From Limnomonas spitsbergensis (lineage: Eukaryota; Chlorophyta; Chlorophyceae; Chlamydomonadales), in contig JAYJMM010000021.1 of assembly GCA_037349105.1 (NCBI GenBank), forward strand, positions 868,001 through 932,000: 64,000 nt of DNA. The letters run 5' to 3'. Numbering within the stretch: the stretch's first letter is position 1; every line of letters starts with the position of its first letter. The notes beneath the pieces are model-generated. The model saw only the letters and a list, made by a program, of their open reading frames with translations, ran no database searches and was not told where the DNA came from. The translations under genes were made by a program, and so were the position numbers. Positions 8,741 to 62,504 of this stretch are shown here, piece after piece.

Positions 8741-11700
8741 TCAGCTGTACAGCCTGCCCATGATGCGTCCAGTCAGCGAATGGAACAAGAGGCATGCCGC
8801 GGCCGCGTCCATAATGTTGACGGAAGGGTCCAGGGACGTTGCGAAGCCCACGATGACGCAGACGCCGATGACGAGAGATGCGTAGCGGCTATCCACGGTG
8901 ACCTCGTGAATGCGGGAGATGCGCAGAACCTCCTTGATAACCTGATGGAGGGGGACATCAGGCAGCAGACCAGATTCCATATTTTGTCCAGGTTTTCTTA
9001 TCTGATGAGTATTATCAAGTTTTCAGTTTTTAATCCAACAAGCACAGTGTTGAGTGACAGTGAGTAAGATGCCCAATCACAAAAACAAGGGGGTCAGATG
9101 GCCCACTCTACTCTACCAAGGTTTTCAAAACTTGTAAACAACGGATTTCAGGTCGCGCTGAAGTGCAAATTAGAAGCGGGGCCCAAAACTTTCTCCATGA
9201 GAGCTCAGATGCAAAACCACTGCAAGACACTAGATTTTGAGATTTCAGTTTCCCACTACTTTTCATGGACCTTGGAGCGCCAGCAGGCACACAGCACTTT
9301 GGTTGCTACCTTAAACAACACGTTTCAAATAGCCCCTTCAAAATCTGCCAGTGCAAGGGGTAGGCTGGCCTGTCTCTCAAGAAGCATAACCACATATCGT
9401 CCGTCACATACATACAAATAAGCGTGTGGAAAGCTGCTGACAAGCACCTCACCCACTCTGAAACCCGAGACCTGAATCTCACTGACCTTATCCACGTCGA
9501 TCCCAGCAGGGGCCTGGATGTCACACTCGCGGTCGAACATCGCCGTTATGTCCGCCTCAAAGGCGACCCTGTTGGAGCACCGCTGCTTGATGCCCCACTT
9601 GAGCAAGTGACGGGTGGCGCGATGGCCACTCCCTGCATGGGTTACAAGATCAAGGATCCAGGGTAAAGGGGTCCGGGTCAGGGGGCAAGGGCTGGGCGGA
9701 TGATTACAAAGAGCAGGCAGGTTTGAACGGTACGTCCGGCTAGCAAAGTCCCATAGTCTGGATCAGAGCAGGACAGGTGGCTTAGCAGGGCGCGCAGCAC
9801 CCCGACCAAGCAACACAGCACCAGCATGGCCAACGACAGTGCGTGATACTGGCTTATCTATTGGCCATGACAAATGAGCCATTAGTATTGGCTCATTTGT
9901 CAGACAAGTCTTTGTTTCAATATTTTATTTCGTGTACCGTTATTCACATTTTGAAATGTAGAATGGGAGCCTGTGCGACCTGCCTGAGCAGATGGCGTTG
10001 AGGAAGCTCACGAAGTGGTGGCGCACTGTTGGCGTCAGCTCCTCAGCCAGGCCAAAGTCTAGCAGGACGAGCTGCGTGCGGAGCAGGCTGGCCGCCTCTC
10101 TTGCGACGCCCGAGCCGCTAGTTTCGGCAGATGAGCCTGCCTGCGCCCCCAATGGCGCCTTCCCCGTCGCGTCCCGAGGCGGGCGCACTGCTGTGGGGTC
10201 AGTGCTCACCACCCTGTCCTCTGAGTCCACGATACGAACCATGATGTTGCCTGTGTAGCGGGACAAATCCAGATAGGAGTGATCATGGATCTATATAGGG
10301 TGTGATCATGGATCCAGATCACGATGTATCGTGGATCCAGAAAGAGATGGATCATAGATCTAAAAAGAGATGGATCATGGATCCAAAAAGAGATGGATCG
10401 TGGATCCAGAAAGAGATGGATCATGGATCCACATAGGGATGGATCATGGATCCACTAAGGGATGGATCATTGATCCAGAAAGGGATGGATCATGGATCCA
10501 GAAAGGGATGGATAATGGATCCACAAGGGGATGGATCATGGATCCAGGCTGGGAAAGATCATGGGGACAGGTAAGGATGGACCATGGATCAAGATAGGGA
10601 GTAAGGACACAAGAAGCAGCAAGATGGCTCCAGGTGGGAAGGACAAAGGAAGCCCTGGGATCACACCACGGAGTAATCGGCTGTCTCCGGAGCAGCATTG
10701 CACCGCAAAACCAAAAAGCTGACACAACGTAGGGCTCCTTGAGAGGTGAAAGCATTCCTACTTGCGATTGCCTCGTGATAATGAACCTGCTTACTCCATG
10801 TGGATGCCATCACATCATCCACATAAGGATGGCAGCCGACTGGTAGCCGACTGGACAAAATAGACTCTTATCCTCGTTTTGGCTCATGGTCGAATGGGGG
10901 AGTTCATACCAGCAGCAACAATACAAATGGCGAGGCCGGCAAAGGCCGGGTGTTTCGAAAGGTCCTGCAAAATACCCTGATCCGCACTCTGTATTGATCA
11001 AACTGCGTGCTGCCTATGTTCGCTTGTGCTTGGTCCAATGCAGATTAGGGTTTAAGGTTCAGGGTTTAGGGCTTAGGTTCTCCTGTCGTCAACACAGCAC
11101 TCATGTGCATTGCTCAGACTCAGACACTAGGCTGAACAAGCCTCTCTCCCCTACCTGGGTGCAGGTCGGTGTGTACAAAGTTGTGCAAGAGGAGCATGCC
11201 CAGGTAGGTGTCCACGCCCAGCGCCACAATCTCCGTGTTGACCGGGGTCGTGGTCCGCGTGAAGTGCGCCACACTCAGGCCAGGCTCAAAGGACTCAATC
11301 AACACAGCCGCAGAGGCCCACAAGGGACGGGGGGTGGTCACCTGCGGAACATATCATAACAGTGGCGGAGAGACTAAGAGTTGAGTTGCGTGCCCTGAGA
11401 CAAATGCCCCCACATGGCAGTTACCTTCTAATTTCATTCATGTTCTTACAACGTATGGTGCTGGGTTTAACATGATAGAGTCAGGGAGTGCCTCTTCAGG
11501 GTGCTCCGGCCACAAGGCTGGATTCACAAATAATCCATGCCACAGGGCGCATTCATTGCTACCTTCTTTAAGGGGCGGCGTAACCACTTCCAACATTTCA
11601 GCTACAATTCAGCTACCATCTGGTCTCCAGACAGAGTCCAATGTAAGACCAGACATGCTGCTTGGGCCCGTATCTGTCGGTTGGTAAACGTTTGGCCCCC

Positions 11701-14700
11701 CAGGGGCCTTGGCAGCCGCTGGGTAGCCCATTGGCGGCCCGCCAAAGTTGGACATCGTTGAAGCGAGACAAGGGAGTCAGCGGGCTCCCTCCTGATTAGG
11801 CCCTCCTGTAACAGCATCCTCATGCATTCCAACTCCATTGAGGCCTCTCCCACATCAATCCTCAATTCCTCACCCACTCAACCTTACCTCACCGCCCCCC
11901 CTGCATCCCACGTTCCTGACCTGCCTCCCATCCTTAAGCATCATATTCCACAAAGCTTTACACCCGGACAGTGCGGCAACACACCTATCTTACCAGCGCT
12001 CCGTTCCACCTTGATGTCTTGCAACACATGCCCCTCATTTCCATACCCCACCTGCCAGCCCACCCCACCTGCCTGCCCACCCTACCTGCCCACCCCACGT
12101 GCCCACCCCACCTGCCTGCCCAACCCACGTGCCCACCCCACCTGCCTGCCCACCCCACCTGCCCACCCCACGTGCCCGCCCCACCTGCCTACCCCACCTG
12201 CCCACCCCACCTGCCTGTCCACCCCATCAGCCTGCCCACCATACCTGCCCACCCCACGTGCCCACCCCACCTGCCTGCCCAACCCACCTGCCTGCCCACC
12301 CCACCTGCCCATCCCACGTGCCCGCCCCACCTGCCTACCCCACCTGCCAACCCCACCTGCCTGTCCACCCCACCTGCCTGCCCACCGTACCTGCCTGCCC
12401 ACCCCACCTGCCCACCCCACCTACCTGCCCACCCCACCTGTCCACCCCACCAGCCTGCCCACCGTACCTGCCTGCCCACCCCACCTGCCTGCCCAACCCA
12501 CCTGCCCACCCCATCTGCCTTCCCACCCCACCTGCCCAACCCATCTGCCCACCCCACCTGCCTACCCCACCTTCCTGCCCACCCCACCTTCCTGCCCACC
12601 GTGCCTGCCTGCACACCGTACCTGCCTGCCCACCCCACCTGCCTGCCCACCTCATCTGCCCACCCACCTGCCTGCCCACCCCACCTGCCCACCCCACCTG
12701 CCTGCCCACCCCGCCTGCCTGCCCACCCCACCTCCCTGCCCAACCCATCTGCCTGCCCACCCGCCTGCCTGCCCAACCCACCTACCTGCCCACCCCGCCT
12801 GCCTGCTCACCTCACCTGCCTGTCCACCCAACCTGCCTGTCCACCCAGCCTGCCTGTCCACCTCACCTGCCTGTCCACCTCACCTGCCTGTCCACCTCAT
12901 CTGCCTGCCCACCCCACCTGCCTGCCCACCCCACTTGCCTGTCCACCTCACCTGCCTGTCCACCCCACCTGCCTGCCCACCCCACCTGCCTGTCCACCTC
13001 ACCTGCCTGTCCACCTCACCTGCCTGTCCACCTCATCTGCCTGCCCACCCATCTGATTGCCCACCCCACCTGCCCAACCCATCTGCCCACCCCACCTGCC
13101 TGCCCACCCCACCTGGCCACCCCATCTGCCTATCCACCCCACCTGCCTGCCCACCGTACCTGCCTGCCCAACCCACCTGCCTGCCCACCCCACCTGCATG
13201 TCCACCTCACCTGCCTGTCCACCTCACCTGCCTGCCCACCCCATCTGCCTGCCCACCTCATCTGCCTGCCCCACCTTTCTGCCCACCCCACCTGCCCACC
13301 CCGCCTGCCTGCCCACCCCATCTGCCTGCCCACCCCACCCGCCTGCCCACCGTACCTGCCTGTCCAACCCACCTGCCTGCCCACCCCACCTGCATGTCCA
13401 CCTCACCTGCCTGTCCGCCTCCCCTGCCTGCCCACCCCATCTGCCTGCCCAACCCACCTGCCCACCTCACCTGCCTGCTCACCCCATCTGCCTGCCCACC
13501 CCACCAGCCTGTCCACCCCACCTGCCTGTCTACCTCACCTGCCTGTCCACCTCACCTGCCTGTCTACCTCATCTGCCTGCCCACCCCATCTACCTGCCCA
13601 CCCCACCTGCCCAACCCATCTGCCCACCCCACCTGCCCACCCCATCTGCCTGCCCACCCCACCTGCCTGCCCACCGTACCTGCCTGCCCAACCCACATGC
13701 CTGCCCACCCCACCTGCATGTCCACCTCACCTGCCTGTCCACCTCACCTGCCTGCCCACCCCATCTGCCTGCCCACCCCACCTGTCCACCCCACCTGCAT
13801 GTCCACCCCACCTGCCTGTCCACCTCCCCTGCCTGCTCACCCCATTTGCCTGCCCACACCACCTGCCTGTCCACCCCACCTGCCTGTCTACCTAACCTGC
13901 CTGTCCACCTGACCTGCCTGTCCACCTCATGTGCCTGCCCACCCCATCTGCCTGCCCACCCCACCTGCCCAACCCATCTGCCCACCCCACCTGCCTGCCC
14001 CACCTGCCTGCCCACCCTATCTGCCTGCCCACCCCACCTGCCCACCCCACCTTCCTGCCCACCCTATCTGCCTGCCCACCCCACCTGTCCACCCCATCTG
14101 CCAGCCCAACCCATCTGCCCACTCCACCTGCCTGCCCAACCCACCTGTCTGTCCACCCCACCTGCCCACCCCACCTGACCAACCCACCTGCCTGCCCAAC
14201 CCAAGTGTCTTCCCACCCCACCTGTGTTGCCGCTCCCCCAAAGTTGGTGTGAAAGCGTTCAAGGTGCGCCGCCTCCACCCGTAGGTCACACTGGGCTGTC
14301 ATGGTGTCACTGAACTGGGAGACACTGTCTTCCAGGCCTAGACCACGCAGGGGGCCCAGCCTGCTGGCAGGGGTATGGCATCAAAGCTTAGGGTATAGGG
14401 TCTGTGCTGCGAGGATCAGGGTTCACGGGGATCGAGCCGAGAGGTCCAGGATTATGAGTTTAGGGTTCACAGGCAGCGGGATGAGCGCTGGAGCACAAAA
14501 AAAAAGCTGGAGCATTTCTGACACAGAGTATCAGACCCACAACGTTTCTGCTGCTAGGGGTTACAAGCACTGACACGTTTCCTGATGTAATGATTACGAT
14601 CAAATTAAAATGGCAATCATGATTAAAATTGCTCCTGAAAGAAACTGATCTGTCCTCCCTCGGCACTTACCCCGAAGCCTGCCTGGCCAACATCTTGATC

Positions 14701-17700
14701 ACCACGAAGTCGAGGGAGATGCGATGAGCGACATGCGGGTGGCAGACCTTGACTGCCACGGACATCGGCCTGCCCTCCACCAGCACCACAGCGCGGTGTA
14801 TCTGCCCAGCCATGTGAAACAGAGGCCACGGGTTGCAAACATTATGAATATATGATCAAGGAGGCGGCTCTTATATTTTCATGAAATTACCAATCTCCGT
14901 CACAATTGTTGGTTAATGAAGCTGGACGCAGGAGAGAGAAGAAGGCAGCGGCACATCAGCACTGTGCAGGGACCATCGCCGCACCCCATCTGTGTGTTTC
15001 TTCTACTTTTTACTCGAGCCTTCACCCTAGGCTGCCATGCCGTCTGGGGCCCCAGCGGCCGCTGACCAGAGTTTGACCTCGGGCCCAGCTGGACAGCGAC
15101 CCACACACAAACACAGCCGGAGGAGAAGCAAAACGTATCCAAGATTTCCACACACCAGGCGAAGCTCCATGCAAAACCTCACCCCAAAGGGTTTAAGGGT
15201 AAGGGTTAGGGTTTAGGGTTTAAGCTCCATGCAAAACCTCACCCCAAAGAGTTTAAGGGTAAGGGTTAGGGTTTAGGGTTTAAGCTCCATGCAAAACCTC
15301 ACCCCAAAGGGTTTAAGGGTAAGGGTTAGGGTTTAAGCTCCATGCAAAACCTCATCCCAAAGGGTTTAAGGGTAAGGGTTAGGGTTTAGGGTTTAAGCTC
15401 CATGCAAAACCTCACCCCAAAGGCACAGTCCGGAGCAGGGGATCCAGGGGTAAAATGATCCAAGGGTAAAGGGATCCAGGGGTAAAGGGATCCAGGGGTA
15501 AAGGGATCCAGGGGTAAAGGGATCCAGGGGTAAAGGGATCCAGGGGTAAAGGGATCCAGGGGTAAAGGGATCCAGGGGTTAAGGGATCTAGGGGTTAAGG
15601 GATCCAGGGGTAAAGGGATCCAGGGGTAAAGGGATCCAGGGGTAAAGGGATCCAGGGGTAAAGGGATCTAGGTGTAAAGGGATCCAGGGGTAAAGGGATC
15701 CAGGGGTAAAGGGATCCAGGGGTAAAGGGATCCAGGGGTAAAGGGATCCAGGGGTAAAGGGATCCAGGGGTAAAGGGATCCAGGGGTAAAGGGATCCAGG
15801 GGTTAAGGGATCCAGGGGTTAAGGGATCCAGGGGTAAAGGGATCCAGGGGTAAAGGGATCCAAGGATGCCACACCACTAGGCTAAGCTCCATGTACAACG
15901 CTGTCACTGTGTCAACCACCCTCTGTCATGATTCTTTGCAGGATCCAGAACCCGAAGTTTGCAGGACTGATCTTGGCCAAGCCCTGCCTGCCCCTAAATG
16001 ACTCGATCAAGCCCCACCTGCCCCACCTGCCCGTAAATGACTTGATCAAGCCCCACCTGCCCCTAAATGACTCGATCAAGCCCTACCTGCCCCACCTGCC
16101 CCTAAATGACTCGATCAAGCCCTACCTGCCCCACCTGCCCCAAAATGACTCGATCAAGCTCTACCTGCCCCACCTGCCCCTAAATGACTCGATCAAGCCC
16201 TTCCTGCCCCACCTGCCCCTAAATGACTCGATCAAGCCCTACCTGCCCCACCTGCCCCTAAATGACTCGATCAAGCCCTACCTGCCCCACCTGCCCCTAT
16301 ATGACTCGATCAAGCCCTACCTGCCCTACCTGCCCCACCTGCCCCTAAATGACTCGATCAAGCCCTACCTGCCCCACCTGCCCCTAAATGACTCGATCAA
16401 GCCCTACCTGCCCCACCTGCACCTAAATGACTCAATCAAGCCCTACCTGCCCCACGCTGGCCGATGCCAGCGGCTTCTCCTCCATAGAAATGAAGGCTTG
16501 CTCCAGAGGCATGCCCAAGGCTTGCTCCACCTCCACTCTGGTCTGTGCGCATTCACCAGTGGAGAGGGGAAAGGCGGTGAAATATGTAAGGGGGACTGGG
16601 CACGCCTCCCGAGTGCCATTTTCATGATGTGCATTTACCAGTGGAAAAGGGAAAGGAGGTGAAACATGAAAGGATCACCTCACAGGACTGAGTGTCATTT
16701 TTGTGATGTTGTTGTCACTTCTGCTACAAACTCCTAAGTAGTAAGTAAAAGGGTCAGCTGGCGGGACCTCCCGAGTGCCATTTGAGTGATGAACGTTCCC
16801 CGGTGGATAGGGGAACAGCTGTGAAATATGGCAAGCCCCTTCAAGGGAAGAATGCCCCTCGCAGTAACGCAGGCGCAGAGGCCAGGGACATGACCCGCAC
16901 AAAGATACAACAATGTAGTGCTGCACCCCATGGCTTGTTGCTCCTGAAATATTATGACGGGCGGTCATAATATGCACTGTCACTTCCTATCAGGACACTC
17001 ATGTGGCGAAACCCTAAACCCTTAACCCTGACTCCTAACCCCTATCAGAGCACTCACGTGGCTAAACCCTAAACCCTTAACCTCTCAACCCTAACCCCTA
17101 ACAGAGCACTCACGTGGCGGAAGCTGTGTGTGGGTGCCGCCTCGTGCAGGGTGGACATGACGTCACAGAAATCTGGGGGGAAGAGGTCGGTGCGTGTGGC
17201 CGCCCATTGACCCCACTGCAACACATGAGGGAGGAAGGCTCAGACACGGGCAACGGAGTAGCAGTGGCGGGAAGCTCTTCACGCACTCCATCCCCCCCTC
17301 ACCCACGCCTTTCCTTGTTAATCACTCAGACACGGGAGCCAGTTGACAGGAAAAGGCGGGCGACATGCAGCAGTCAGGCAGTCATAAACCCCACAGTCAA
17401 ATCCCGCTCTCCAGCCCCACCCCTGCCCTTCCCTCCCCTCCCCATCCTCTATCCACACCAGTGTGTCTTTTTTCGTGAGACAGCTACATGTCTGCTACAT
17501 TCCGGCCGCTGGCCGGAGGCCCTATTTTTGGACAGCCTTGCTGCTTTGGCCACCAGTCGTAGGCCAGTCCAGGTTTGGTCCTAATTGGGCTTATGGCAGC
17601 CGCTGGGCGGCCTGCCCAAGTTTAACTCCTGGCCAAAAAAACAAGCATTGATCCACACAAACCCCTCTCCAGCTCCTGCCCTATCATTCTCTATCCACCC

Positions 17701-20700
17701 ACCCCCCTCTCCAGCTCCTGCCCTCCTGTACGCTGCAATGCTGCTCACTTTGATCAAAGCTGCGCCCGTCATCCTGCAACCCAGCAGCAGGGTCCTCCAG
17801 GCAGCCGTGCGCAGGGCCACCGCAGAATCCTCAGGAGAGGGCCACCGCATACGCCACACGCGGCTCTGCTGCCCCTGCTGCTTCTGACCGGCCCCTGCCA
17901 GCCCCTTGGCTGAATCGCGACCAGCCGCCCCTCTGCCGGCCAACCATATGGACAGGAGCAGCAGAGGCAGGCCGATCAGCAGGAACGGCAAGAAGGCGTA
18001 CATCAGGAACGCAGCACGGGCCACAAGCTCCAGGCGCCGTCCGAGGGAGAGACGCTCCCCACCCGGCTGCTGGGGCTTGCCTACGTGGTCACTGCTGCCG
18101 TACAGAGGCAGATCGAGGGCTAAGGCAGCTGCCTGGAAGCTGCCACGAGCTGGCAGCTTCAGGTCTAGCTGCCTGGCTGCTCCGGCTGCCTCCGCGGCTG
18201 TAGGTGCATGCTCTGCTGGGGCAGCTGCCCCTGATGCTGCAGCCTCCACAGGCATATCCACAGGGGCATGCTCTGTTGGGGCACCTGCTCCTGGTACTAC
18301 AGCCTCTACAGGCATAGCTGCAGGGGCAGCTAACACCCCCGCTCCCGCTCTTGCTCCAGATCTGGCATCCGAATACGAGTCTATAGCGCCATTAGAAGCA
18401 CCATCTCCACCAGAAGCGTCTGCGGCATCCACGTCTGTGCCTGCTGGCAATGCCTCATTCTCGTCAAGAAAGGAATCTTGGAAGGCGCCATTCGAAGGCG
18501 GGCTCGAAGCGGCAGCTGGGGGAGACCGACTGTCAGCCAGGCAAACAGCCCTAGGGCCAGATTCGACCCCGTTGGACTTACCCTCTCCACGGAAAGCTAC
18601 AGCAAGCTCCGAAAGACACCCGGAGCTAGAATTAAACGCGAGGCCTGGCAGGGCGTCACTGCCTGGAAGAGAAGGAGCGACGGATACGCCGTTGGGCCCA
18701 GTGCCCGGGACCCCATCCGTGGGTTTCGGAGCCTGGGCGTGGGGGCGACCATGCTCCACGTCACCCGCCTCTTGAGGGACCGCCTCGTCGCCGGCCGCGA
18801 GTTGAGGAGGTTCCATTTTGCAACCAGAGGGCGGCCCCACCCGGCTCCGGCTCCCTTTCTGCTGGACAGGTCCGGGAGGGATCCCGGGGGGGCCAGCGGC
18901 GACCCCGTCCGCAGGCCTGTCGGGTTCCCCAAGGCCAGCGATGCCAGCATAGGACGTTCGGCCCAAGAAGTCCTCTCTGGGTTCTGTGGCGGCTGTCGGT
19001 GGGATGGAGAGGGCAGGGCCGCTGCTACAGCTCAGAGCGACGGACTTGGTGACGCCTTCGCCCGGCAGCTGGCCGGGCTGGGATGAGGCAGCACTCCCAA
19101 CGTTTATTGCATCCGCTGTTGCATCCGCTGTTGCAGTGGCTATTGCAGCAGCAGGCTGACCGCCAGGTGGCGGGCCCAGCTCACAGCCTGGCGTCCCGGG
19201 CTTCAGCTGCACGGATGCTGCAAGGCAAAAGGGCGGAGGGATTCAGGGGGTGTCGGTCAGGTGTACCTTTCCAGGTGTTGCGATTCAGGCAGAGGTGTCC
19301 AGGTGTTGTGCGTCAGGCGGAGGTATCTACATGAGTCAGGTAAACAGGAAGGCCGCCCCAGCAGTGCTTGCAGCCTAGCTGTTGTTGTTACGGCTTCATC
19401 CCAAGTCCCAACAGGAGCATATTTTCAGAAGGGCCAGACAGTGTGAACTGGAAGAACAGAGAAAGCTCAAGCTGTGATAGGTAGGTGACGAGCAAGAAAG
19501 CGAAGACGGCGCAGGACCACAGATGCAAAGCAGGTGGATGCGTGATGGATCAACTCGGGTGCTTCGAAACCATCACATGTAGGCAAGCAAGCCTGCCCTT
19601 TCAGACACAAGGGTTATGGGTTTAGGGTTTGGGGCGCCGGCGTTTGGATTAGTGTGTGCCATACCACCTTTGGGGGGGGGGCGCTGGGCGGACACAATTG
19701 GCTCCAACTGGGTCCAGACCTGTAGCCCGAGCGTCAGGGCTTGCTACACCAGGGGGGGGGTAGCTGAATTGTAGCTGAAGCGCGGTGAAAACACAGTGCA
19801 GGTCGACTCTCTCTCTGGACCCAAACTGCAATGAAACTTAACCACCACATGCCCCGAACGAGGGGATTGAGCCAATGTGCTGCGAGTACCTGCTGCTACG
19901 ACCAGCACGGGGCCACTGCACTAGGCGATTACAGGGTTAAGGAATAAGGGTTCAGGGTTTAGGGCCATTGAACGAGGCGGGGCACAGGCCCATCGTCTGG
20001 CGGTGCACACATGTATCCCCCTTGTGCCTGACAGGCACGACTGAGAAGCTCACCCGATGCACTCCAGCCACCACCGCCGCCGCCGCCGCTGCCGCCGTAG
20101 ACCTGCTGTGCAAAGAGCGCCTGGCCGTCCCAGCCAGCTGCTCCCACCCTGAAGCTCATCCTCGCTGCTACATCCAGTACGGGGCCCAGGGGTGGCGTAG
20201 CCGGTAGGTCCTGGAGGAAACGGGCCACGCGGCGCCCGGCACGCTTATGGTGCCCCCGCCAGGCGCGCTCCAGCTCGGGACCTGGGGGATGCACGGGGCG
20301 CAGTGAGGGGGGGGGGCAGCGCAAGAGGATAGCGTCAGTGAAGACCAATCCTTGGAAGGTGTAAGAGGAAAGGGATAAGGGATACAGGGTGTAGGGTGTA
20401 GGGTGTGGGGTTTAGGGTTTAGGGTTTAGGGTTTAGGGTGTAGGGTGTGGGGTGTAGGGAATTTTTGTGGGATGAGGCCTAAAGGGCCTGTGTCAGAGCC
20501 GCCTTCAAGCGTACCTTGACAGTGGGACTGCTTGCGGCTGCAGAGGTGACTCATTCAGTTAAACCATGGATAGCTACGGAACGTTCGGCGCGCTTGTGAT
20601 AGCTACGTCAGGGACTGAGTGTTCCGGACCCCGGGACTGAGTGCGTCTCCGCCACAATACCGCAAGTAAGGAGATGACAGGGAGTGATGGGGAGTAGTCG

Positions 20701-22084
20701 CATGATGGCGGGAGTGACGGGGAGTAGTTGTGTGATGGCGGGGAGTGATGGGGAGTAGTCATGTGATGGCTGGGAGTGACGGGGATTAGTTGTGTGATGA
20801 CTGGGGTGACGAGGGAAGGCATGTGATGCCGGTGAGAGACGGAAGGAAGTCATATTTTGACGAGCAAGGCTTCACGATCCAGGCACCAGTGTTTTTATTC
20901 TAGGCCATAAATGGTCTGCGGCCACAAATGAGGCCACAATAATCAATGACAGAAAGCTGCCTTACTGCCAGGCACTCACCGCGCCTGATGGTGCCCATGG
21001 CCGCACTCCTCTGCAGCTGCTTGCTCTCCAGGAACACCGTCGTAAGCGCCGCCACCGCACACACAATGTGGTGGGAGGAGGGGTGCAGCAGTGCCCACGT
21101 AGCGCCCGCCCCAGACAGCAGCGCCGCCGAGGCTGACAGCTGGAGAGCGAGCACGGCTGCAGCGCCCGCGGCGCCGGAGCAGGAGCGGAATGTCGCGGAC
21201 CGGGCCCGTGCCCAACGCCTAGCCTCCCCTGCTGCCACAACGCTGGTCCTGGCAAGCCCATCGGCGGCCGAGGTGCCGTCCGGACTGCTGGTCAGCCTCC
21301 AGTCCTGCCCCCCTTCGTCTTCATCAGCTGCAGCAGCTGCGCCCCTCCGCCTGCGCCGCACAGCTTGCCGCACCCAGTGAAAGGCAGCCAGCACGGCGTG
21401 CGCCTGCAGCGCATGACCGGCCAGGCACTTGACCGCCGGCCCGACCTGGTCCGGCAGCATCAGGTTGGACAGCAGCAGCGCACCAGTCACTTCGACCAGC
21501 TCGAAAGGGCTGTAGGGAAACCATGCGCCGGAGCTAGAACAGGCAAGGACCGCGCCCTGCCCTCGGCCGCTGCGCCTGGCAGCCGTTCCCATGCCTGCTG
21601 CCGCCTGGGAAGCCAGGTTTGAGGAAGACATCAGTGCTGGGCGACAACTAGAATCCAGGCTCTCTGCTGCTGCAGCTGTGGGTCCGGAGTTGCAAACCTG
21701 CCCAGCTGAAGCATTCCCACCCAGCTCCCGGCCGATGCAGCCGCTGCTGTCACTGCTGCTGCTGCTGCTGTCATTGCTGCCGCTGCTGTTTGGAGAGGGT
21801 CTAGGTTGGCAGAACGGAGACTGCAGTGAGAGGTGTGCCTCAAACAGGCTGATTCTCACATCCGGCGAGCAGGGGCGACCCAGCGGCAGGCAGGCCCTCA
21901 GGCGCAGCGGCAGGCGGAGGCGGATCTCTACGGGTCCGGTGGCACCCAGATGGATGCCTAAGGGGGAGCAGGGGGGCAGGCAAATAATCAGCTTTCGAAT
22001 TCCGGCTACAAGGCCGATGAGATCGATTGGGACTTCATCATGAGTCTTGAACGGCCCCCAGATGCAGCATGTCTGTCTGACCAT
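8741..22084 (-). CDS. ABC1/UbiB-family atypical protein kinase (ADCK2/Cqd1-like), 11 exons
   Basis: Exons in transcript order: 22084-20980 (start provisional), 20281-20054, 19217-17749, 17215-17114, 16542-16447, 14801-14671, 14360-14222, 11341-11155, 10250-9984, 9632-9457, 8941-8741 (stop TGA). All phases join, giving about 1366 aa. Signatures in order: membrane segment about 846-872; KxGQ-type motif IKWGQWAATRTDLFPPDF (about 933-950) formed across an exon junction; Ala-rich loop ASASVGQIHRA, also across a junction; nucleotide-binding Lys in SVAVKVCHP; CDLRVEAAHLERF; HTDLHPGNIMV; LDFGLAEEL (about 1219). Family members act in mitochondria or plastids in quinone and lipid homeostasis. The ~930-residue N-terminal extension is Ser/Ala/Gly-rich and not recognised. 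A strong acceptor-like site at 21957/21958 means the first exon could instead begin there, with upstream exons unseen. The junction 9984/9983 needs a GC donor (CAG|GCAGGT). Most introns are filled with satellites. Confidence 0.85.
9868..9902. repeat. Hairpin-forming inverted repeat
   Basis: Perfect 14-bp arms TGACAAATGAGCCA and TGGCTCATTTGTCA with a 7-bp loop, inside the ABC1-kinase intron between its 9th and 10th exons. Confidence 0.75.
10273..10560. repeat. GATGGATCATGGATCC satellite
   Basis: About a dozen units of roughly 24 bp built on GATGGATCATGGATCCA plus GAAAGG or CATAGG. The array lies close to the 3' end of the ABC1-kinase intron between 11155 and 10250. It abuts neither splice site directly. 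Confidence 0.85.
12045..14221. repeat. 2.2-kb CCCACCCCACCTGCCTG minisatellite, starting at a 5' splice site
   Basis: Irregular 13-17 bp units. On the gene-sense (minus) strand the unit reads GTGGGGTGGGCAG(GCAG) and the array begins exactly at the ABC1-kinase donor CAG|GTGGGG (14222|14221). It fills most of the intron down to the exon at 11341. The sense strand is very G-rich. Long Pro/Cys/His/Leu ORFs across it are by-products of the repeat. Confidence 0.9.
15164..15423. repeat. Composite repeat with TTTAGGG telomere-like blocks
   Basis: About five units of roughly 60 bp, each made of AAGCTCCATGCAAAACCTCA, CCCCAAAGGGTTTAAGGGTAA and GGGTTAGGGTTTAGGGTTT. Intronic in the ABC1 kinase (14802-16446). 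Confidence 0.85.
15440..15862. repeat. 16-bp satellite GGGATCCAGGGGTAAA
   Basis: About 26 nearly identical head-to-tail units with rare TAA-to-TTA or CCA-to-CTA variants, in the same ABC1-kinase intron as the telomere-like composite. Confidence 0.92.
15985..16446. repeat. 39-bp satellite starting exactly at a 5' splice site
   Basis: On the gene-sense strand each unit runs GTAGGGCTTGATCGAGTC...GTGGGGCAG, so it starts GT and ends AG. The first unit's GT is the real donor after SVGQ (16447|16446). About 11 copies follow. The 244-codon plus-strand ORF over it is a repeat artefact. Confidence 0.88.
16990..17113. repeat. Triplicated donor plus telomere-like block
   Basis: The real donor context (sense GCCAC|GTGAGTGCTCTG, boundary 17114|17113) is repeated about 53 bp and 106 bp further into the intron. 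Each copy is separated by (G)GGTTAGGG/GGGTTTAGGGTTT sequence. A 10-bp-arm hairpin (ATATTATGAC..GTCATAATAT, about 16950-16974) lies just beyond. Confidence 0.8.
20391..20458. repeat. Interstitial TTTAGGG / TGTAGGG repeats
   Basis: About nine 7-mers alternating GTGTAGG and GTTTAGG in the intron between the first two ABC1-kinase exons. Smaller patches occur at about 11045-11080, 14390, 19615-19635 and 19935-19960. Confidence 0.85.
20660..20845. repeat. ~31-bp tandem repeat
   Basis: Units like GGCGGGAGTGACGGGGAGTAG followed by TTGTGTGAT, about six copies, in the first ABC1-kinase intron. They do not touch a splice site. Confidence 0.75.
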
Positions 22085-26454: not shown

Positions 26455-26494
26455 AAGCTTTATTTAGGCAGGGCCCAGAGGTGTAGCATTATTG
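26455..26494 (+). mobile_element. LINE 3'-tail fragment
   Basis: GCCAAGCTTTATTTAGGCAG then GGCCCAGAGGTGTAGCATTATTG matches the family terminus with a few changes. A convincing TSD was not found. Confidence 0.5.
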
Positions 26495-26635
26495 ACACAT
26501 TTTGAGGGTAGCTTTATAGAGTGATGAGTGGTGGGGAGTCAGATTCATATAACCACTTCTGAGGGGTAGTTCCTCCCCCCTAAAGTCATTTTTTCTTTCT
26601 CCGTTTTCTTTACGTTTCATTTCCTTTATCCTTAC

Positions 26636-27156: not shown

Positions 27157-27202
27157 TTGTTAAACTACTTCGGCGCCCATACCCAGAAAAGCCTAGCTGT
27201 TC

Positions 27203-50597: not shown

Positions 50598-51606
50598 AGA
50601 GAGATCGTACACAGTAGCCGAGTTGGTTGTTTGGCTGTTGCGAGCTTGAATGGTGACAAGTCATCCTTTTGGGATAGAATGTCAGTTGATGGGAGCTGGC
50701 AACGGGCACGCACAAAGTGGGCGTGGAAGTTGCTGGACTGGCAAATTGACGAGGCAAGATTACTTTGTGGGCACTGCATTCTTCCACGGGGCATTACCTT
50801 TCTTATACTATTATACTATTAAGCTTTGCTACAAAATGTTGTGTGCTTGGGGGCTTCAAGCTACATCAACAGCTGTATCAGTGTCATAACACTGATAGCC
50901 CTCCTTTGTCTATGTCACCTGGGTTTATAACCGGGTGCATTCCTTTGCCATGCTTCAATGGTTGTGCGTTGCTTTCTAAGACAGAGCCACTACTGTTTTC
51001 TGACCGCGGTCCTACTTTGTATAGCACCTGAATCCATCCCATGCATCAATTGCTTGCGCTGCCCTCCTGGACTGGTTTTTCAAAAATCCACTCCTCTTTT
51101 GCAGCCGATTAGCAAGAGATTGAGCTGGCGGTCTGATCCCGCATTAGTATCCCATCTGGCATCTGGAAGCAGATGACATGATATTGACTTCCATTTACGA
51201 GAAGAGGGAATTGGGAGGTGATTTCTGGGCTGTGTCCCCAGATGTCTAACATTTAAATCGGTTTGTCGAGCAAGAGCGACTGGGGGATTTTGCTTCTCCA
51301 TGTTTACATCCTTGGAGGTACCGTAGTGGCAGAAAGCTTTATTGAAGCAGGGGCTCGCTCACAAGCTTTGCGTTTTAGAATGTATTCACCCTCAAAGGAC
51401 CCACACCAGCACACGCTGACAGTGCGGCCCACCTTGGTCGATGCCACTACTTGTAAATGCAATGACTTGTGTTATCTACACTTATGTCGAAGCTACATAA
51501 CGAGTGTGGGGCAGCGAGCCCTCTTATTCCGGGGGGGGGTAGGCCCAAGACCCCCCCTTGCTTAATCTTATGGGGCCAGTCTGGACACTGGCTGTGGGCC
51601 CGGTTA
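50598..51606. other. No gene recognised; DCAF1 downstream region
   Basis: Contains the presumed 3' UTR and polyadenylation region of DCAF1. No convincing ORF or array. Confidence 0.4.
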
Positions 51607-51660
51607 AGTCATTGAAGTCACACCTCTGGGCCATGCTGGAAAGGCTCGGCCGCGGTAGGC
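51607..51660 (-). mobile_element. Short LINE 3'-tail fragment
   Basis: CATTGAAGTCACACCTCTGG then GCCATGCTGGAAAGGCTCGGCCGCGG is the family terminus in minus orientation. No clear TSD. Confidence 0.55.
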
Positions 51661-52001: not shown

Positions 52002-52170
52002 ACTTGGCTCGGCCGAGCTTTTTTTGAGCAGGAACCAGAGGTGTAACGTCATTGACCTGGCTCGGCGGCGTGGTGCCAGAATATCTGGTAGGGTGGAGAA
52101 GCAAAACTGAAGCCTAGGGGAGGAAGGAAAGGAGCAGACGCAAAAATAGAAGGAACGGACCATTCGTAAA
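52002..52170. mobile_element. Two opposed LINE-tail fragments
   Basis: A plus-oriented 42-bp terminus (52013-52054, ending GAGGTGTAACGTCATTG) is flanked by ACTTGGCTCGG (52002-52012) and ACCTGGCTCGG (52055-52065). Directly after it, 52059-52170 is a minus-oriented tail (GGCTCGGCGGCGTGG.. then an AGG/AAAGGAGCAGACGC purine tract) that aligns with 1480-1590. The minus copy lacks its expected terminus. Confidence 0.6.
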
Positions 52171-54872: not shown

Positions 54873-57800
54873 CTACTTTAAATTCCTGGGGTTTTCCAAT
54901 GACACAAACCTGGCTGATTTTGGAGCATTAGGAGTGACCGCCATTTTCTTGAACGCCTGAGGGGTAGCAAGGGTGGAAAACATCCGGGACTGAGAAAAAA
55001 ACAAACAGGATAAATCCAAGAGGAAGCTCGTCAGCTTGAGGTCAGCATCTGGGATTGTCTGAATTCCAGAGGAAAGGCCACATACACTCACGGACCCTGA
55101 GCCTGCACGTGCACCCTTGCAGCCTGAAAAGAGTAACAACTGCCCCAAGTCATCCTGAGGGCCAGGTCAAAGCGCTAACACTACAACGGGTCAAACCTGC
55201 TAATAGCCCCACTCATCTGACTTCATCTGACCCCAGGATAGTGTGGGCATGGACCTAGGTCGCCTGCCACCTCGCCTAGGGTGCTTGATATCATCAGACC
55301 CCACAGACTGTTCAGCAGCAGACCATGCGGAGGATGTAAAAATACCCAGACATGCACCTCGAGCAGCTCTTGATTGACGGGCGTCAAGATCTGACGGTCG
55401 TCGAAGGCTCCCAAGTCCCCCCCTCCAGCCTCCAGCTCCTGACAACAGAATAAACGAATTAGATAAATAAATAGATACGCAAATAAAGTGTGTGGATGTA
55501 GAACATGAGCAGGGAAGAAACGCAGAACTCTCGAGGCAGGCGCGGTACGTGGGCCGAAGTACACAGACGGGATGACGATAAGAAATAAAGAAGGCATGAC
55601 CACATGTGCTGACATGCAAGCATGCAGAAGACAGAGCAAAAGCAGCAGGAGCATTTTATCAATGCAGCGATGAGAAACAAAACAATCATCACACCAACTG
55701 GCCACGTTGGCAATAATCAGGAGTAACGATCCTATTCACCTATGTGGACGTTAACTACATCAGGATCTGAAACTGATACAGCTCTGAAACCAATATAGCA
55801 ACCCTCGTGAAATTGCCGAAGAATATAATATACGTGTTTCCAAGTAAAGAGCCCCGCCTTGCTCTAAACTGTCTATGTCTCCATGATATCTCTCATCATT
55901 CTTCAATCCATGTCATACCAAGGCGTCCGTTAAGTACGTCTTGTACAGCCTTAGAACCAGGAGCATGGAACGCTACATATTGTTCCATCTGCCAACAAGT
56001 CCCCGAGGAATCAATCAGCAGACAGACCTTCTGCTTAGCTTCCTTCAGGGAATCCATCAGCAGACACACCTCCTGCTTAGCTTCCTTCAGGGAATCCATC
56101 AACACACCTTCTGCTTAGCTTCCTTCAGGGAATCCATCAGCAGCCACAACTTCTGCTTAGCTTCCGTCAGGGAATCCATCAGCAGACACACCTTCTGCTT
56201 AGCTTCCTTCAGGGAATCCATCAGCAGACACACCTTCTGCTTAGATTCCTTCAGGGAAATCAATCAGCAGACTCACCTTCTGCTTGGCTTCCTTCGGGAA
56301 ATCAATCAGCAGACTCAACCTCAAACGATGGCGGTCGGGTTCACCCCGCCAATGAGGGCGTTGACCGTGTTAAAATTGGACGTCAGGCCGCTGCTGCTGG
56401 CAGCGCAAGACACCGAGGGGTGGTACACGTTGACAGAGAGCGAGTTGGAGTTGGAGTTGCTCGGTGGCGGCGGCGAGGGTGGGGGGGGTGAAGGACTCAC
56501 CCTCTGCTTAGCTTCCTTCGGGAAATCCATCAGCAGACTGACCTTCCGCTTAGCTTCCTTTGGGGAATCAATCAGCAGACTCACCCTCTGCTTGGCTTCC
56601 TGTTCATCTATCGCAGCCTGGTACTTGGGCGTCAACGGCTGAGTCATCCATGGGTGAGACCGGATGCTGCTCACGTCAATGCGCTTGTCCTGAATCAGGC
56701 ATGCCGGTATATTATTTATGAAGCTGGAATTGCAATGGGATGGATGCAGGCCTGTCAGGGGAGCGCGGACTGGTTGGCCAGATCTCTAGACAGCTTCGAA
56801 GCAGTTGGAAATCAGATAATAAACACGCTCGCAATTCGTACCACCATCCAACAGAACCTGCGCGACGCCAAGGGCCCTCAAAATTGGCGAAATCAAGGCC
56901 CTTCAAGACGATGACCCCTATCAACAGATGCGAGTGTTTCTGAACAATATCTAAACCCTTTAATCGAAACTCAAGCTTGACGTCGTTGACAGTGGTCTGG
57001 GCTGAAGACATGCACAAAATAGGCTGTAAAATTATTGCTGTACGGTATTCACAAAAACACTAAATTCCCAGACAAAGAAACATAACATACCATGATTTGG
57101 ATAGCTAATAATGACGACCAGCAGACACTACCCTTACCAGTACGCGTGCACCCTGCCTGACAGTGCAATCCATAATTCAGATCCTGTGCCCCCCCCCTTT
57201 ATCCGGCCTCACCGGGTCCAACTCGAACACCTGGTCCAGCATGTCCCGCAGCTCATCGCTGAAGAGGCGTACCGTCAGCGCATTGTCCTGAATCTCCTGC
57301 CAACTCCCTTGGTTCTGCAGGTCAAAGACAAGGTTGATGGTTAAGGCTCCTAGCTTCAGTATAGGGCTTAGTTTCATGCCAACAGAGGAGAATCGTCCAT
57401 GGTTCTGCAGGCCAAAGACAAGGTTGATAATTTAAACCTTGTCCAAGCTTCAGTTTAGGGCTTAGTTTCATGTCGACAGAGGAGGATCTTCCATGGTCAT
57501 ACAAGCTTAGGGGCATGGTAAATGCTTAATGCTCCATGCTGAGGTGTAGGGTTGAAGCTCCATGCTGCAGTTGAGGGCTTAAGTGTATGCCGACAGGCGA
57601 CAGGGAAGGAAATTCCCCCTCACAGTGCAGAAACGTAAAACACATCACAGGCGTCCCTTGTTGATGCGTGCCAACTGCCAACACTGATGGCAAGCCCAGC
57701 ACACCCACCTGTCCCCTGCCTCCCTCAATATCCCCAGGGGACTTACCCCTGAGCAATCTCCTAATACTAAACTGTTTGGGGGAGAAACGCTGTTGTTGTT

Positions 57801-60800
57801 GCTGCCCGGTCTGTACAAGACAAGGCTCAGCTAGTCATCATCAGTCCAGGGAGTACTTCACCTGCTTGGCCCAAATCCCATTGGGAGAGAAACGCTGCTG
57901 TCTCTAACACACCGGCCAGACAGTCATCATCAATCCAGGGAGAGCTACACCTGCTTGGCCCAAATCCCATTGGGAAAGAAACGCTGCTGTCGCTAACACA
58001 CCGGCCAGACAGTCATCAGCAGTCCAGGGAGAGCTTCACCTGCTTGGCCCAAATCCCATTGGGGAAGAAACGCTGCTGTCGCTAACACACCGGCCAGAGA
58101 GTCATCAGCAGTCCAGGGAGAGCTTCACCTGCTTGGCCCAAATCCCATTGGGAAAGAAACGCTGCTGTCGCTAACACACCGGCCAGACAGTCATCAGCAG
58201 TCCAGGGACAGCCTTACCTGCTTGGCCCAGATGACATTGGTGAGCTCTGTCTGTGTCTCTGGAGCGATGCTGTCCCCGACGGTGTCAAAGGGGAACTGGG
58301 ACGTCAACATGACGTACAGCAGCACACCCATGCTCCACATGTCGGCCTTACCGCCGTCATAACCAATATCTGGCGACCTGTATCAATCAAAGGGAAATAA
58401 ACAAGGAAGCTTAGGACTGAGGGCTAGCGTACGTGCGTCGATAAACGGAAATAAGCTTAGGACTTAGGGTTTAGGATTTAGGGTTGGCATTCCTACAGCA
58501 ACCGGACAAATAAAAAGTGTAGGTCAGGTTTTATGGTCATGCATCTATTCAGCATCCCATGCAAGAAGTGGGGCACTAGGGCTGCATGCAGGACTGCAAA
58601 GAGGGGGCGGTAGACCTGAAAGTACAGGATTGTAGACATAACGTGTGGGGGTAGCGGGTTTCGGTGAGAGGAATAATTTTGGTAACCCCACGAATTAAAT
58701 TTGGGTCCCAGACGCACCACGTCTTTAAAGAGTAGGTGAAGAAGCGTGGCCCTGAGAATTAAATTTGGAGGTAGAAGCGCGTACACGTCTTTAAAGAGTA
58801 GAACTTCTACTCTTTAAAGACGCAGTACGCTTTAGAGAATCATCGGGATTGCTTGGAGCCCTGAGGGCGCTCTATGGGGCCTCACCCTGAGTTTATTGAA
58901 TCGCTTATAATTGGTGCGCTAATGGAGTCGGAAGTCGTATTTGTTTTCAACAAGAGGCAAACACAGTAGCCTATTTGCATGCTGTTTGGACTGTTTTGTC
59001 GGAATCCGGTTATTGTAGTGATAAAAAAACCAAAGTGCAAACTAGGAGAAGTGTGAATAATAAAATATGTTATTTATACAGATTTACCACTTGGACTTTT
59101 AGTAGTTTTAATTTTTGTAGGGAATTATTTTATAACCCTTCGAATAAAATTGGGGTCCCAAAAACTAGGCGACAACACAGTTGTGCTAGGAAGAGTCATG
59201 CGCAAGGGTTGCCCGGGGGGGCGACACCGCACCAGTCCACATGCACTGGTCAGCCTAGTGCTAAAATTTGAGGTTACCATACTCTTCTGAATGGCATATG
59301 GCACTGACAGGAGGTTAAGCCGATCGTGATCGATACCATGAGCAAAGCCCGTCACTTTCCCAGCATACCCGTCCATACAACGAACATTTCAGTCACGGTA
59401 TAGCAAATCTGTTTAACATACCAGTGCATATGCATTTTACCTACGGCTTCAAGAAATCTCCCTGCCGTGGTAGCCCACCTAGTGCTACGGCCGAACGGGT
59501 GGCTTCCATAATCCACGCCCCAGGGTGTATTGATTGCAAAGGGACCAATATCGGTACCCGTGTATACCTTTGTACTGTCGGTTAAGGGGCGCTTGCGACT
59601 GGGCAGCAGGCCCTCAGGCTCGCTCGCCCAACTGCTATGTCGTACTGTCATGTGGCCTGGCCAGCGGGCCCTCAGGCATTAGTTTAAACCTCCCTGCCAC
59701 TCATGAGTATTGATTTATTCATGTAAACCTCCCTGCCACTCACGAGTTCCTGATCACTTCAGGGCCCATGTAGTCGGGCGTGCCCACCAGCATGGACTTG
59801 AGACGAGCACCCAGAATCCCCATCGGCCCCCAGGGCTTCGCAAAGCCAAAGTCGCACAGCTTGATCCATGGCGGGTTATGCTCGTCCAGCAGGATGTTGT
59901 CCAGCTTCAAATCTCTGCAGTAAGTGACAGACATGAGTAACATCAGAGCAGCTGATGCTGCATCAGGCACATGAATCCGTCAGCTCCAATTATTAACAGG
60001 CAGGGAAGCCTGGCATGACAGACATGCACTTCAGCAAGGAAATATTAAGAGGCAGGGAAGCCTGGCACATGAATCCGTAGCGTTTTGTGGCCGTCCAGCA
60101 GAATGTTGTCCAGCTTCAAATCCCTGCAGGGTGTGACGGGGACACAAGCGGCATCAAGGCAGCATTCCGTATGGGCTTCTTGTAGATTCAGATCCCATGC
60201 GACGTCTGCTCGCGCCTAATGGAAGGTACTACATGTCTGGAACATCTCTAACATTGCGCCCAGACTGGCAAACGAAAGCAAAGCAAGGACGGACCCAGAG
60301 AATGCTCCTCACCTGGGAACATGCGTCGATAGCGGAGCCAGAGGTTACCCAACACCACCTCCAGCCCAGGAGCCCCCACCCCCTAGTTCAGGACCTCCAC
60401 CAACCTGTGTGCAACACAGTGCTTGTGGCAATACTCGATTGCATTGATCAGTTGCATGAAGAAGTATCTAGCTTCGTCCTCCTCCATGCACAAGCTGGGA
60501 CCGAGGGGGACACGTCTGCCAATGTAGCTAGCCATGTCTCCACCTGGCAAGACGAGGGGGCAGGGGGAAGGTCAAGCGAGCAAGGGATAAAGGAAGCATG
60601 TACTGTGTAAAGCATCCAAACCATCCAAACAAAAAACGAGAGAGGCTGCAACACAGTCCATGAGAGGAGAGAGGCTGCAACACATTCCATAAGAGGAGGG
60701 AGGCTGCAACAAAGTCTATGAGAGGAGACAGGCTGCAACACAGTCCATGAGAGGACAGAGGCTGCAACACAGTCTATGAGAGGAGAGAGGCTGCAACACA

Positions 60801-62504
60801 GTCTATGAGAGGAGAGAGGCTGCAACACAGTCCATGAGAGGAGAGAGGCTGCAACACAGTCTATGAGAGGAGAGAGGCTGCAACACAGTCTATGAGAGGA
60901 AAGAGGCTGCAACACAGTCCATGAGAGGAGAGAGGCTGCAACACAGTCTATGAGAGGAGAGAGGCTGCAACACAGTCTATGAGAGGAGAGAGGCTGCAAC
61001 ACAGTCCATGTGAGGAGAGAGGCTACAACACAGTCCATGAGAGGAGAGAGGCTGCAACACAGTCTATGAGAGGAGAGAGGCTGCAACACAGTCCATGAGA
61101 GGAGAGAGGCTGCAACACAGTCTATGAGAGGAGAGAGGCTGCAACACAGTCCATGAGAGGAGAGAGGCTGCAACACAGTCTATGAGAGGAGAGGGGCTGC
61201 AACACAGTCTATGAGAGGAGAGAGGCTGCAACACAGTCTATGAGAGGAGAGAGGCTGCAACACAGTCCATGAGAAGGGAAAGAAAAGGGGCATGCATTTT
61301 GCACAATTGAGATGGTGGATCATGAGGCTCCGAACCCTACTCTAGAGCCAGCATAGCAATATGGTCAAGCCACTGGGCCCTTTCGGGGGGGGTATCATTC
61401 CTGCTACCTACCTTCTGGACAGGTAGCATCCATACACCCTCCTAATGAAAACCATATCAAATCTACAGGTGTGCAAATAATTGGTCATCAACAATCCTCT
61501 GAATTCCAGGTAGTGACCAGATGTATCCCGCAGCACGTGGTAGCACTTTATTACCATCCTCAGAGGCATATTCGGTGACAGGCAGTGCATATTTTGGGAT
61601 GCTTCAGCTACAATTTAGCTAGATCACAGCCTGCGGCCATGGTGCCTGTTGCCAGAGCCACCAGCTGTGGCTGGTCGTAGATTATAGTCATGTAAGGTTT
61701 AGGGTTTACGGAAGTGATGTACCGAGTTATTGCTGGCTTGCGGCCCAGCAGCCTGCTGAAGGTGGTCTGGTTAGCACTGAAATTTGCATAGCTAAGGACA
61801 CAGTTAGTAATTTTTAACCATCTGCTGATGCGGATCCTGCAAACATATGAAGAGGCATCCTCACCTGCTTCGTATTCCATCAGGATCCCCAAATGGGTTT
61901 TCGTCAGGACGACCCCCGTTGCTGGGACAACGTTGATGCAGCCTCGCCCCATCCAGAGTTGGATCTTCGTCTCCAGCCTGATGGACTCCAGGTGTCTGAC
62001 CGAGAAAGGTCTCAGCAGAAGCTTCACAGCAATCTTCTCCCCAGTCTTCTTATTCTGCATGGCAGTCAAGGAGGTAACCATCACAGCATATCATGTGTCG
62101 CCAGACCCAAGCTTGTCAGCTGGAATCGTATCAGTCCTTGCTATGCAAGTGACTACCAGTAGCTTGAAGGTTATCAAGTCATTTCACCCCATGCTGCGGC
62201 ATCATACCAGCAAGCTGGTAGAAAACAGGACAGGGCGTATTTTTCGAGGCAGCCTCTCAGATTTTCTCGTGAGGCATCTCACCTGCATCAGCCATGCTTC
62301 ACCCTCGGCACCTTTTCCTAATAACTTGATTACTCTATGTGTATCCCCCATTCCGAAGTCGAACGTAGCCTTTCCGGGTCGGAAATTCTCTTTCGAGCTT
62401 CCTGTTGCATAGTCCTGGTCTGCCATGCCATTTTCAACATACGCATCCCTGCAGCTATCCGAATTGACGGTCCGCGGGAAGGAGCAACACGATAGTAGTC
62501 CCAT
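54873..62504 (-). CDS. SnRK2-like Ser/Thr protein kinase, 9 exons, 428 aa, N-terminal acylation motif
   Basis: Exons: 62504-62283, 62054-61865, 60543-60405, 59914-59744, 58377-58218, 57314-57213, 56689-56585, 55438-55358, 54989-54873 (TAG). Total 1287 nt with all phases joined. The protein begins MGLLSCC, a consensus for N-myristoylation at Gly2 with adjacent Cys for palmitoylation. Kinase landmarks: P-loop [10 protein letters not shown] (about 62-71), IAVK Lys85, EYEAGGDM hinge, HRDLKLDN (about 183-190), DFG (about 205-207), [11 protein letters not shown] where GPE replaces [22 protein letters not shown], and [18 protein letters not shown] closing the domain. The tail [22 protein letters not shown] is helical. 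SnRK2 kinases mediate osmotic, nutrient and stress signalling. If exon 7 is not spliced, the frame continues through a 42-bp repeat to a stop at 56321 after a Pro-rich tail. I prefer the spliced model because the heptad continues smoothly. Confidence 0.85.
56005..56605 (-). repeat. 42-bp array copying the exon 7 end plus donor (SnRK2-like gene)
   Basis: Sense-strand units read GAAGC(T/C)AAGCAGA(A/G)G|GT(G/C)(A/T)GTCTG..CTGAT(T/G)GATTCCC. The first contains the real donor AGG|GTGAGT (56585|56584). Two more follow to about 56507, then after a ~170-bp Pro/Ser-coding segment about seven more run to about 56010. The unit length is a multiple of three, so each alternative donor in the first block would add 14 residues in frame. 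Confidence 0.88.
57315..57510 (-). repeat. Duplicated 3' splice-site region before exon 6 (SnRK2-like gene)
   Basis: The real acceptor TTTGACCTGCAG|AACCAAGG (57315|57314) is copied about 90 bp upstream as TTTGGCCTGCAG|AACCATGG (57405|57404). Shared flanks are AACCTTGTC, CATGAAACTAAGCCCTA and CCTCTGT. A third partial copy ends at about 57495. Confidence 0.75.
57770..58217 (-). repeat. 89-bp array with four decoy copies of the exon 5 donor (SnRK2-like gene)
   Basis: The real exon end CCAATGTCATCTGGGCCAAGCAG|GTAAGG (58218|58217) is followed every 89 bp by CCCAATGGGATTTGGGCCAAGCAG|GTGAAG-type copies at about 58128, 58039, 57951 and 57861. Each is followed by CTCTCCCTGGACTGCTGATG, ACTGTCTGGCCGGTGTG and AGCAGCGTTTCT. 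Confidence 0.88.
58672..59163. repeat. Repeated flanks with an 18-bp-arm hairpin
   Basis: GGAATAATTTTGGTAACCCC and ACGAATTAAATTTGGGTCCC (58672-58712) recurs as GGAATTATTTTATAACCCTT and CGAATAAAATTGGGGTCCCA (about 59122-59163). Between them, CGTCTTTAAAGAGTAGAA (58786-58803) and its perfect inverse (58805-58822) form a near-loopless hairpin. GTCTTTAAAGAGTAG also occurs at about 58720. Intron 4 of the SnRK2-like gene. Confidence 0.65.
60066..60135 (-). repeat. Decoy copy of exon 4 acceptor and exon start (SnRK2-like gene)
   Basis: The real CTGCAG|AGATTTGAAGCTGGAC (59915|59914), encoding R-DLKLDN, is duplicated about 209 bp upstream as CTGCAG|GGATTTGAAGCTGGAC (60124|60123). The translation [13 protein letters not shown] is preserved. 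The flanking GGCACATGAATCCGT is also repeated (about 59966 and 60066). Confidence 0.8.
60637..61275. repeat. 30-bp satellite
   Basis: About 21 units of GAGGCTGCAACACAGTC(C/T)ATGAGAGGAGA in intron 2 of the SnRK2-like gene. On the gene-sense strand each unit contains CTCTCCTCTC...TGTGTTGCAG, a 3'-splice-site look-alike. The 242-codon minus-strand ORF over it is a repeat artefact. Confidence 0.92.

Follow-up and report, generated by a model that had tools for sequence, protein, structure and literature searches.

The window, a 64,000-nt stretch of the Limnomonas spitsbergensis genome, holds four genes, which were modelled by hand and contain 51 introns. An ABC1-family kinase gene of 11 coding exons lies at 8736–21952 on the reverse strand (Pfam ABC1, E=1e-45), and a DCAF1 gene at 30649–50597 on the forward strand, where 27 coding exons form a single open frame of 6147 nt that aligns with human DCAF1 over its ARM (E=8.4e-32) and WD40 (E=4.6e-41) regions. 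A gene for a SnRK2-like protein kinase occupies 56585–62426 on the reverse strand, with seven modelled exons, an uncertain 3' end and a Pkinase match at E=2.6e-52; its top PDB match is SAPK10, an SRK2/SnRK2-type kinase, followed by SRK2E chains. A preliminary description of this DNA had named these three genes in the same way. The putative glucosidase II beta-like gene (27193–30435, reverse strand), for which we keep that description's name, has nine modelled introns, and the final exon of its model is out of frame.

Spliced alignment to homologues returned the ABC1 kinase junctions 17749/17215, 17114/16542, 16447/14801 and 14222/11341 in 6/6 cases. The hand model of this gene is uncertain at the first-exon start, at donor 9980 (9984 in the homologues), at acceptor 8976 (8941) and at acceptor 14363 (14360 in 4/6 homologues); the hand positions 9980, 8976 and 14363 were used in the window set although the homologues prefer others. 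With the donor at 9984, as in 6/6 homologues, the intron would start with GC (9982–9983). The DCAF1 reading frame is preserved by a GC donor, CAG/GCGCGT, at 46455–46456.

Tandem arrays, called by TRF (90 rows in the window), reach several splice sites of the ABC1 kinase gene. An array of period 17 (12045–14224), with 49 exact matches to CAGGTGGGG on the coding strand, runs past donor 14221 to take in 3 bp of the exon, the junction-spanning copies there carrying only 4 exonic nucleotides; another of period 39 (15978–16455), with 9 exact GGGCAGGTAGGG matches on the coding strand, likewise takes in 9 bp of exon beyond donor 16446. A third, of period 55 (16986–17119), spans donor 17113, reaching 6 bp into the exon by TRF, with a copy that holds 5 exonic nucleotides. 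Arrays had been said to begin at the GT itself: donors 14221 and 16446 are indeed copied, but these overhangs make the statement inexact. The strands of the 2.2-kb array at 12045–14224 are strongly skewed, with a GC skew of -0.664 over 12001–14000.

In DCAF1, where all features are on the forward strand, the array claimed to start at the GT of 33960 proved to lie elsewhere: TRF places it at 34010–34171 (period 48), 50 bp past the start of that intron at 33960, and the junction 50-mer scored only 8 in a search of its own intron, with no copy there or in the junction-spanning search. A single diverged copy of the exon edge and donor 35204 is found at 35389–35445 (51 exonic and 6 intronic nucleotides, 79% identical), and an array of period 103 (35864–36286) runs across acceptor 36272, with three upstream copies holding 20 exonic nucleotides. 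The region of donor 45890 recurs in two copies at 45954–46080 (10 exonic nucleotides), and that of donor 47163 in an array at 47215–47392 (19 exonic nucleotides).

In the SnRK2-like gene, read on the reverse strand, an array of period 89 (57833–58240) crosses donor 58217, and its four downstream copies hold 23–26 exonic nucleotides and an intact GT in 4/4 cases. A two-copy repeat (57310–57497) crosses acceptor 57315 with 8 exonic nucleotides, and an upstream copy of acceptor 59915 (60073–60137) includes 51 nt of the exon start. A 42-bp repeat at 56007–56601 (TRF arrays 56007–56322 and 56494–56601) has an open reading frame running through its exon-side copies. Since the kinase frame stays open across these repeats and a further proline-/serine-rich stretch, as far as 56324 (56324–56689), the site at 56584, put forward as a duplicated donor, may be coding repeat instead; the repeat copies themselves are present, but the exon edge proposed there is no more than putative. 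Twelve splice sites had been listed as carrying such repeats, and own-intron searches found junction-spanning copies at ten: donors 14221, 16446, 17113, 35204, 45890, 47163 and 58217, and acceptors 36272, 57315 and 59915. The exceptions are 33960 and 56584, and a first junction-copy search had returned nine of the ten, missing 17113.

The glucosidase II beta-like gene was said to be free of arrays, and TRF coverage of its nine modelled introns, seven of them shorter than 200 bp, is indeed 0%. Outside the gene models (21.7 kb of the window) coverage is only 3.7%, a figure that counts against duplication throughout non-coding DNA and was weighed as a sign of transcription-linked expansion. At 23 other loci, however, the 89,780 bp that lie beyond the modelled gene spans have 19.7% coverage, which does not bear that idea out, although these stretches may themselves include further introns. 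As arrays are common there as well, duplication would seem to affect non-coding DNA in general. By eye, a reverse-transcriptase-like region is visible at 24000–25900, in the interval that separates the ABC1 kinase gene from the glucosidase II beta gene, and a short motif around 'ccagaggtgtaac...ttgac' recurs at 25840–25890, 26468–26499, 48100–48155, 51604–51650 and 52010–52060. Its copies are both intergenic and intronic, one of them reversed, and probably mark the end of a dispersed element.

Intron sample and repeat density

L. spitsbergensis is an Arctic snow alga, for which the genome paper gives 260.248 Mb in 124 contigs and a place in the same clade as Chlamydomonas sp. UWO 241 (PMC11228838). 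To the window we added 158 introns of dynein and ABC1-kinase genes elsewhere in this genome, fixed by alignment to homologues with a purpose-written spliced protein-to-DNA aligner at 20 ABC1-kinase and 5 dynein loci, plus two short dynein loci. Dynein junctions were accepted where at least 3/5 homologues agreed (78 introns, 74 of them at least 120 bp long) and ABC1-kinase junctions where at least 5/6 did, which gave 84 introns of at least 120 bp from 18/20 loci; the loci L016 and L025 had fewer homologues and contributed no junctions. Introns below 120 bp were excluded (5/51 in the window, 4/78 dynein, and the short ABC1-kinase ones), leaving 46 from the window, 74 dynein and 84 ABC1-kinase introns, 204 in total. 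The comparison with interior controls was confined to introns of 200 bp or more, of which there are 190, and so left out a further 14/204. Over a 97-residue region of dynein, a protein of Chlamydomonas sp. UWO 241 was among the best matches, at 91% identity. At two dynein heavy-chain loci (G000:C86:1734107-1734880 and G000:C122:70607-71296) most of the AAA_8 domain lies in one open frame, while at most others the AAA_8 match is split into several pieces.

In the three gene sets, arrays account for 26.6, 25.1 and 26.3% of the intron sequence, or about 26% over all 204 introns. The 336 TRF rows in these introns are adjacent head-to-tail copies, as in minisatellites, with a median period of 19, half of the periods between 13 and 37 bp and a tail above 80. 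Introns with arrays are longer than those without (median 637 bp against 379 bp; overall median 491 bp), and arrays are present in 3/26 introns of 120–250 bp and in 24/24 of at least 1 kb. This density and its relation to length support the earlier proposal that the introns have grown by tandem duplication. Copies of the intron's own junction follow the same course, being found in 1/26 of the shorter class and 14/24 of the longer.

We took as a junction-spanning copy a segment with at least 4 exonic and at least 6 intronic nucleotides that recurs within its own intron at a score of at least 18. Such copies are present at one or both ends of 56/204 introns, about a quarter, so that tandem duplication across the intron boundary is recurrent in the genes tested. 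That the whole pattern is an artefact of assembly or of misplaced exon boundaries we consider close to negligible: 56584 is doubtful, 33960 lacks the claimed pattern and a few copies are identical (64 nt at locus L024, 21 nt at L033), but most copies diverge by 2–25%, and the junctions outside the window were each fixed by several homologues (at least 3/5 for dynein, at least 5/6 for ABC1 kinase).

Junctions compared with intron interiors

The preliminary description held that repeats meeting splice sites so often were unlikely by chance, and put forward the idea that replication or repair slippage, or end-joining, is seeded at AG/GT. Seeding would mean a start at the splice-site sequence or at splicing-linked structures. 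In the window, 6/34 intronic arrays lie within 3 bp of a splice site or across one. When arrays were shuffled within introns only, 0.55 were expected to touch a splice site and 0/2000 shuffles reached six, so that against arrays barred from exons the claim stands, and this contrast counts in favour of seeding. A process able to copy a few exonic bases, however, makes the intron-confined shuffle the wrong null; with 15 bp of exon overlap allowed the expectation rises to 2.5 (p 0.04), and with 30 bp to 4.2 (p 0.25).

A more direct comparison sets the real junctions against ten random interior positions per intron, scored by the same definition of a copy, with P values from 4000 draws of one position per intron. 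Donors carried a junction-spanning copy in 38/190 introns (20.0%, against 16.9% for the interior control; P=0.089 for an excess, 38 being reached in 8.9% of draws), and acceptors in 27/190 (14.2% against 16.6%; P=0.164 for a deficit, with 27 or fewer in 16.4% of draws). By gene set, the donor counts were 8/42 in the window, 16/69 in dynein and 14/79 in ABC1 kinase, and the acceptor counts 3/42, 10/69 and 14/79. Compared with an interior position, a real donor has a longer stretch of intron downstream in which a match can be found. This biases the test towards enrichment, and still neither difference is significant; binomial arithmetic on the 190-intron counts excludes a donor enrichment above about 1.6-fold at the 95% level. 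Two earlier forms of the test, both using 50-mers at a score of at least 20, agree with this outcome: one gave 5 donors and 3 acceptors in the 51 introns of the window, where the per-intron control was 15%, and the other 15 donors and 10 acceptors in 76 dynein introns, where it was 17.2%.

The share of duplicated 24-mers climbs in a ramp on passing from exon into intron, with no peak at the junction: 0/119 are duplicated when starting 48 nt inside the exon and 6/203 at 45 nt (the latter count including the ABC1-kinase set), about 8% at the donor, 3–5% at the acceptor and 8–13% at 48–120 nt into the introns. The edges of duplicated segments are similarly spread. Around donors, 26 left edges fall in the last 42 exonic nucleotides, 11 in the first 42 intronic ones and 40 in the following 108 nt; around acceptors, the right edges come to 13 in the first 42 exonic nucleotides, 18 in the last 42 intronic ones and 46 in the 108 nt further upstream. 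They are not piled up at the junction, nor at positions 0 or -2. The exonic extent of the copies ranges over 4–57 nt (45 or 60 nt of exon having been searched), and exonic parts of at least 30 nt are found at 13 donors and 11 acceptors against interior expectations of 24.1 and 24.3, about half.

Seeding at AG/GT therefore appears distinctly unlikely to us: the small donor excess and a somewhat raised number of left edges over the final 42 exonic nucleotides lean towards it, but the missing peak, the unclustered edges, the unenriched acceptors and the bound on donor enrichment all speak against it. The 26 left edges in those 42 nt are somewhat many for the density seen in the intron interior, which the 13 right edges past acceptors are not, and are the finding that goes most against a wholly neutral account; the slight excess at donors with a slight deficit at acceptors may reflect a weak splice-related effect. 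A further reading is a filter set by the direction of splicing, in which spare downstream donors would be harmless, the first donor winning, and spare upstream acceptors would be partly selected against. We hold this to be possible but doubtful. A copy at the donor only is found in 29/190 introns and at the acceptor only in 18/190, a difference in the direction that the filter would give but not significant, and against it the ABC1-kinase set has equal numbers at the two ends. If the filter did operate, about one fifth of the donors in this genome would be accompanied by a nearly identical competitor that goes unused, and the alga would offer a natural experiment, on the scale of a genome, in how splice sites are chosen.

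Fate and origin of the junction copies

If the copied sites were functional, recruiting the spliceosome or serving regulated isoforms, selection should have kept them. The GT is intact in 54/64 donor copies and the AG in 34/43 acceptor copies, which at first sight suggests retention, but the expected numbers are 57.7 and 37.0 if the copy alone drifts (51.9 and 31.5 if both copy and original drift), so that the sites are kept at close to the neutral rate. The offsets of the 54 GT-bearing donor copies are also even modulo 3 (18/19/17), without frame bias. In a first count, intact GT had seemed too frequent among donor copies (34/35 against 28.2 expected), but the excess disappeared once short-period copies were unmasked and the copy alone was taken to drift (36/40 against 35.9; 54/64 against 57.7). 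Nothing in the decay of GT and AG or in the offsets speaks for selection on the copies, and a functional role for them seems very unlikely.

The repeats could also be relics of intron creation, as in the model of Rogers and Hellsten, in which duplicated exon segments containing AGGT give rise to introns. Copies of exon edges of up to 51–57 nt do sit within introns, but they lie tens to hundreds of nucleotides inside longer ones, and the exon-derived copies, at most 57 nt long, compare with a median intron of 491 bp (45–80 nt of flanking exon were searched, a range and a sensitivity from which decayed copies would escape). As had been noted before, the duplicated units already include the intron boundary; because the copies hold an intron edge together with an exon edge, the intron would predate them. 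We regard intron creation by this route as highly improbable, save perhaps in cases that have since decayed.

Taken together, these results suggest that introns are very probably lengthened by tandem duplication that is blind to position, that junction copies survive since the outermost site still serves, and that exons are kept clean by selection. The frequency of the copies, the absence of a junction peak, the spread of the edges and the near-neutral decay of GT and AG support the first part directly. On this account the non-coding DNA of L. spitsbergensis would repeatedly gain short tandem duplications, by slippage or templated end-joining, and its introns would lengthen irrespective of where the splice sites lie. 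Duplications that overlap an intron edge would bring 4 to about 57 nt of exon, with the splice site, into the intron. Duplication of a donor would leave the first donor and its exon unchanged, and duplication of an acceptor the last acceptor; were this outermost site (first donor or last acceptor) the one used, the spare copies would be spliced out with the intron and the mRNA would be correct, so that junction-spanning copies could survive. Selection would purge duplications that fall in coding exons or extend far into them. With arrays filling the introns and long exonic reach selected against, arrays would seem to stop at exon edges, which may account for their apparent anchoring. The pattern is real and, in the genes tested, common, but its explanation is an ordinary one, and the anchoring is best read as an effect of clean exons.

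This reading corrects a tempting inference: where introns are full of duplications and exons are clean, one expects to see repeats that look as if they began at splice sites. It also makes these genes a natural experiment on splice-site choice, as roughly one tested intron in four contains copies of its own junction, and the published full-length transcripts of L. spitsbergensis (PMC11228838) could reveal which of the near-identical sites the spliceosome uses.

Relation to known systems

Intronic minisatellites and VNTRs are likewise head-to-tail arrays in non-coding DNA, in the same size range. The arrays described here differ in being dense, at about 26% of intron bases as measured in this genome alone, and in often lying across splice sites. 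The examined passages of the L. spitsbergensis genome paper report a tandem-repeat finder run for masking and are silent on repeats at splice sites, and we found no description of splice-junction-spanning arrays in algae among titles and the openings of abstracts, a search that mostly lay outside subscription journals.

Introners are another source of repetitive sequence in algal introns (PMC9860276), in the form of near-identical whole introns at many loci. This is not so among the 204 introns of L. spitsbergensis: comparison of whole introns gave 28 matching pairs, in each of which the match takes up no more than 80% of the query, which rules out introners within this set. Some cross-intron pair involves 23/204 introns, and pieces of a dispersed repeat family, about 75–200 bp long at 67–87% identity, are present at loci L023, L034, L018 and L029 and in the window intron 17749–17215.

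Intron gain through the duplication of exon stretches that contain AGGT (Rogers 1989; Hellsten 2011; Gao and Lynch 2009), as summarized in PMC3443670 and PMC4974935, resembles the present case in that tandem duplication within genes supplies extra splice sites. In that model, however, exon sequence is duplicated to make an intron, whereas the unit in L. spitsbergensis already holds an intron edge. The closest likeness is to the tandem duplication across an intron–exon boundary published for the RdRp gene of potato (Ma, Lan and Niu, 2016; PMC4974935), in which the duplicated unit also consists of part of an exon, a splice site and part of an intron. The potato case is one event that produced a new intron, while in L. 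spitsbergensis many events, often multi-copy, have taken place inside existing introns. Tandem duplication across the intron boundary is therefore a known kind of event, which occurs here at high density.
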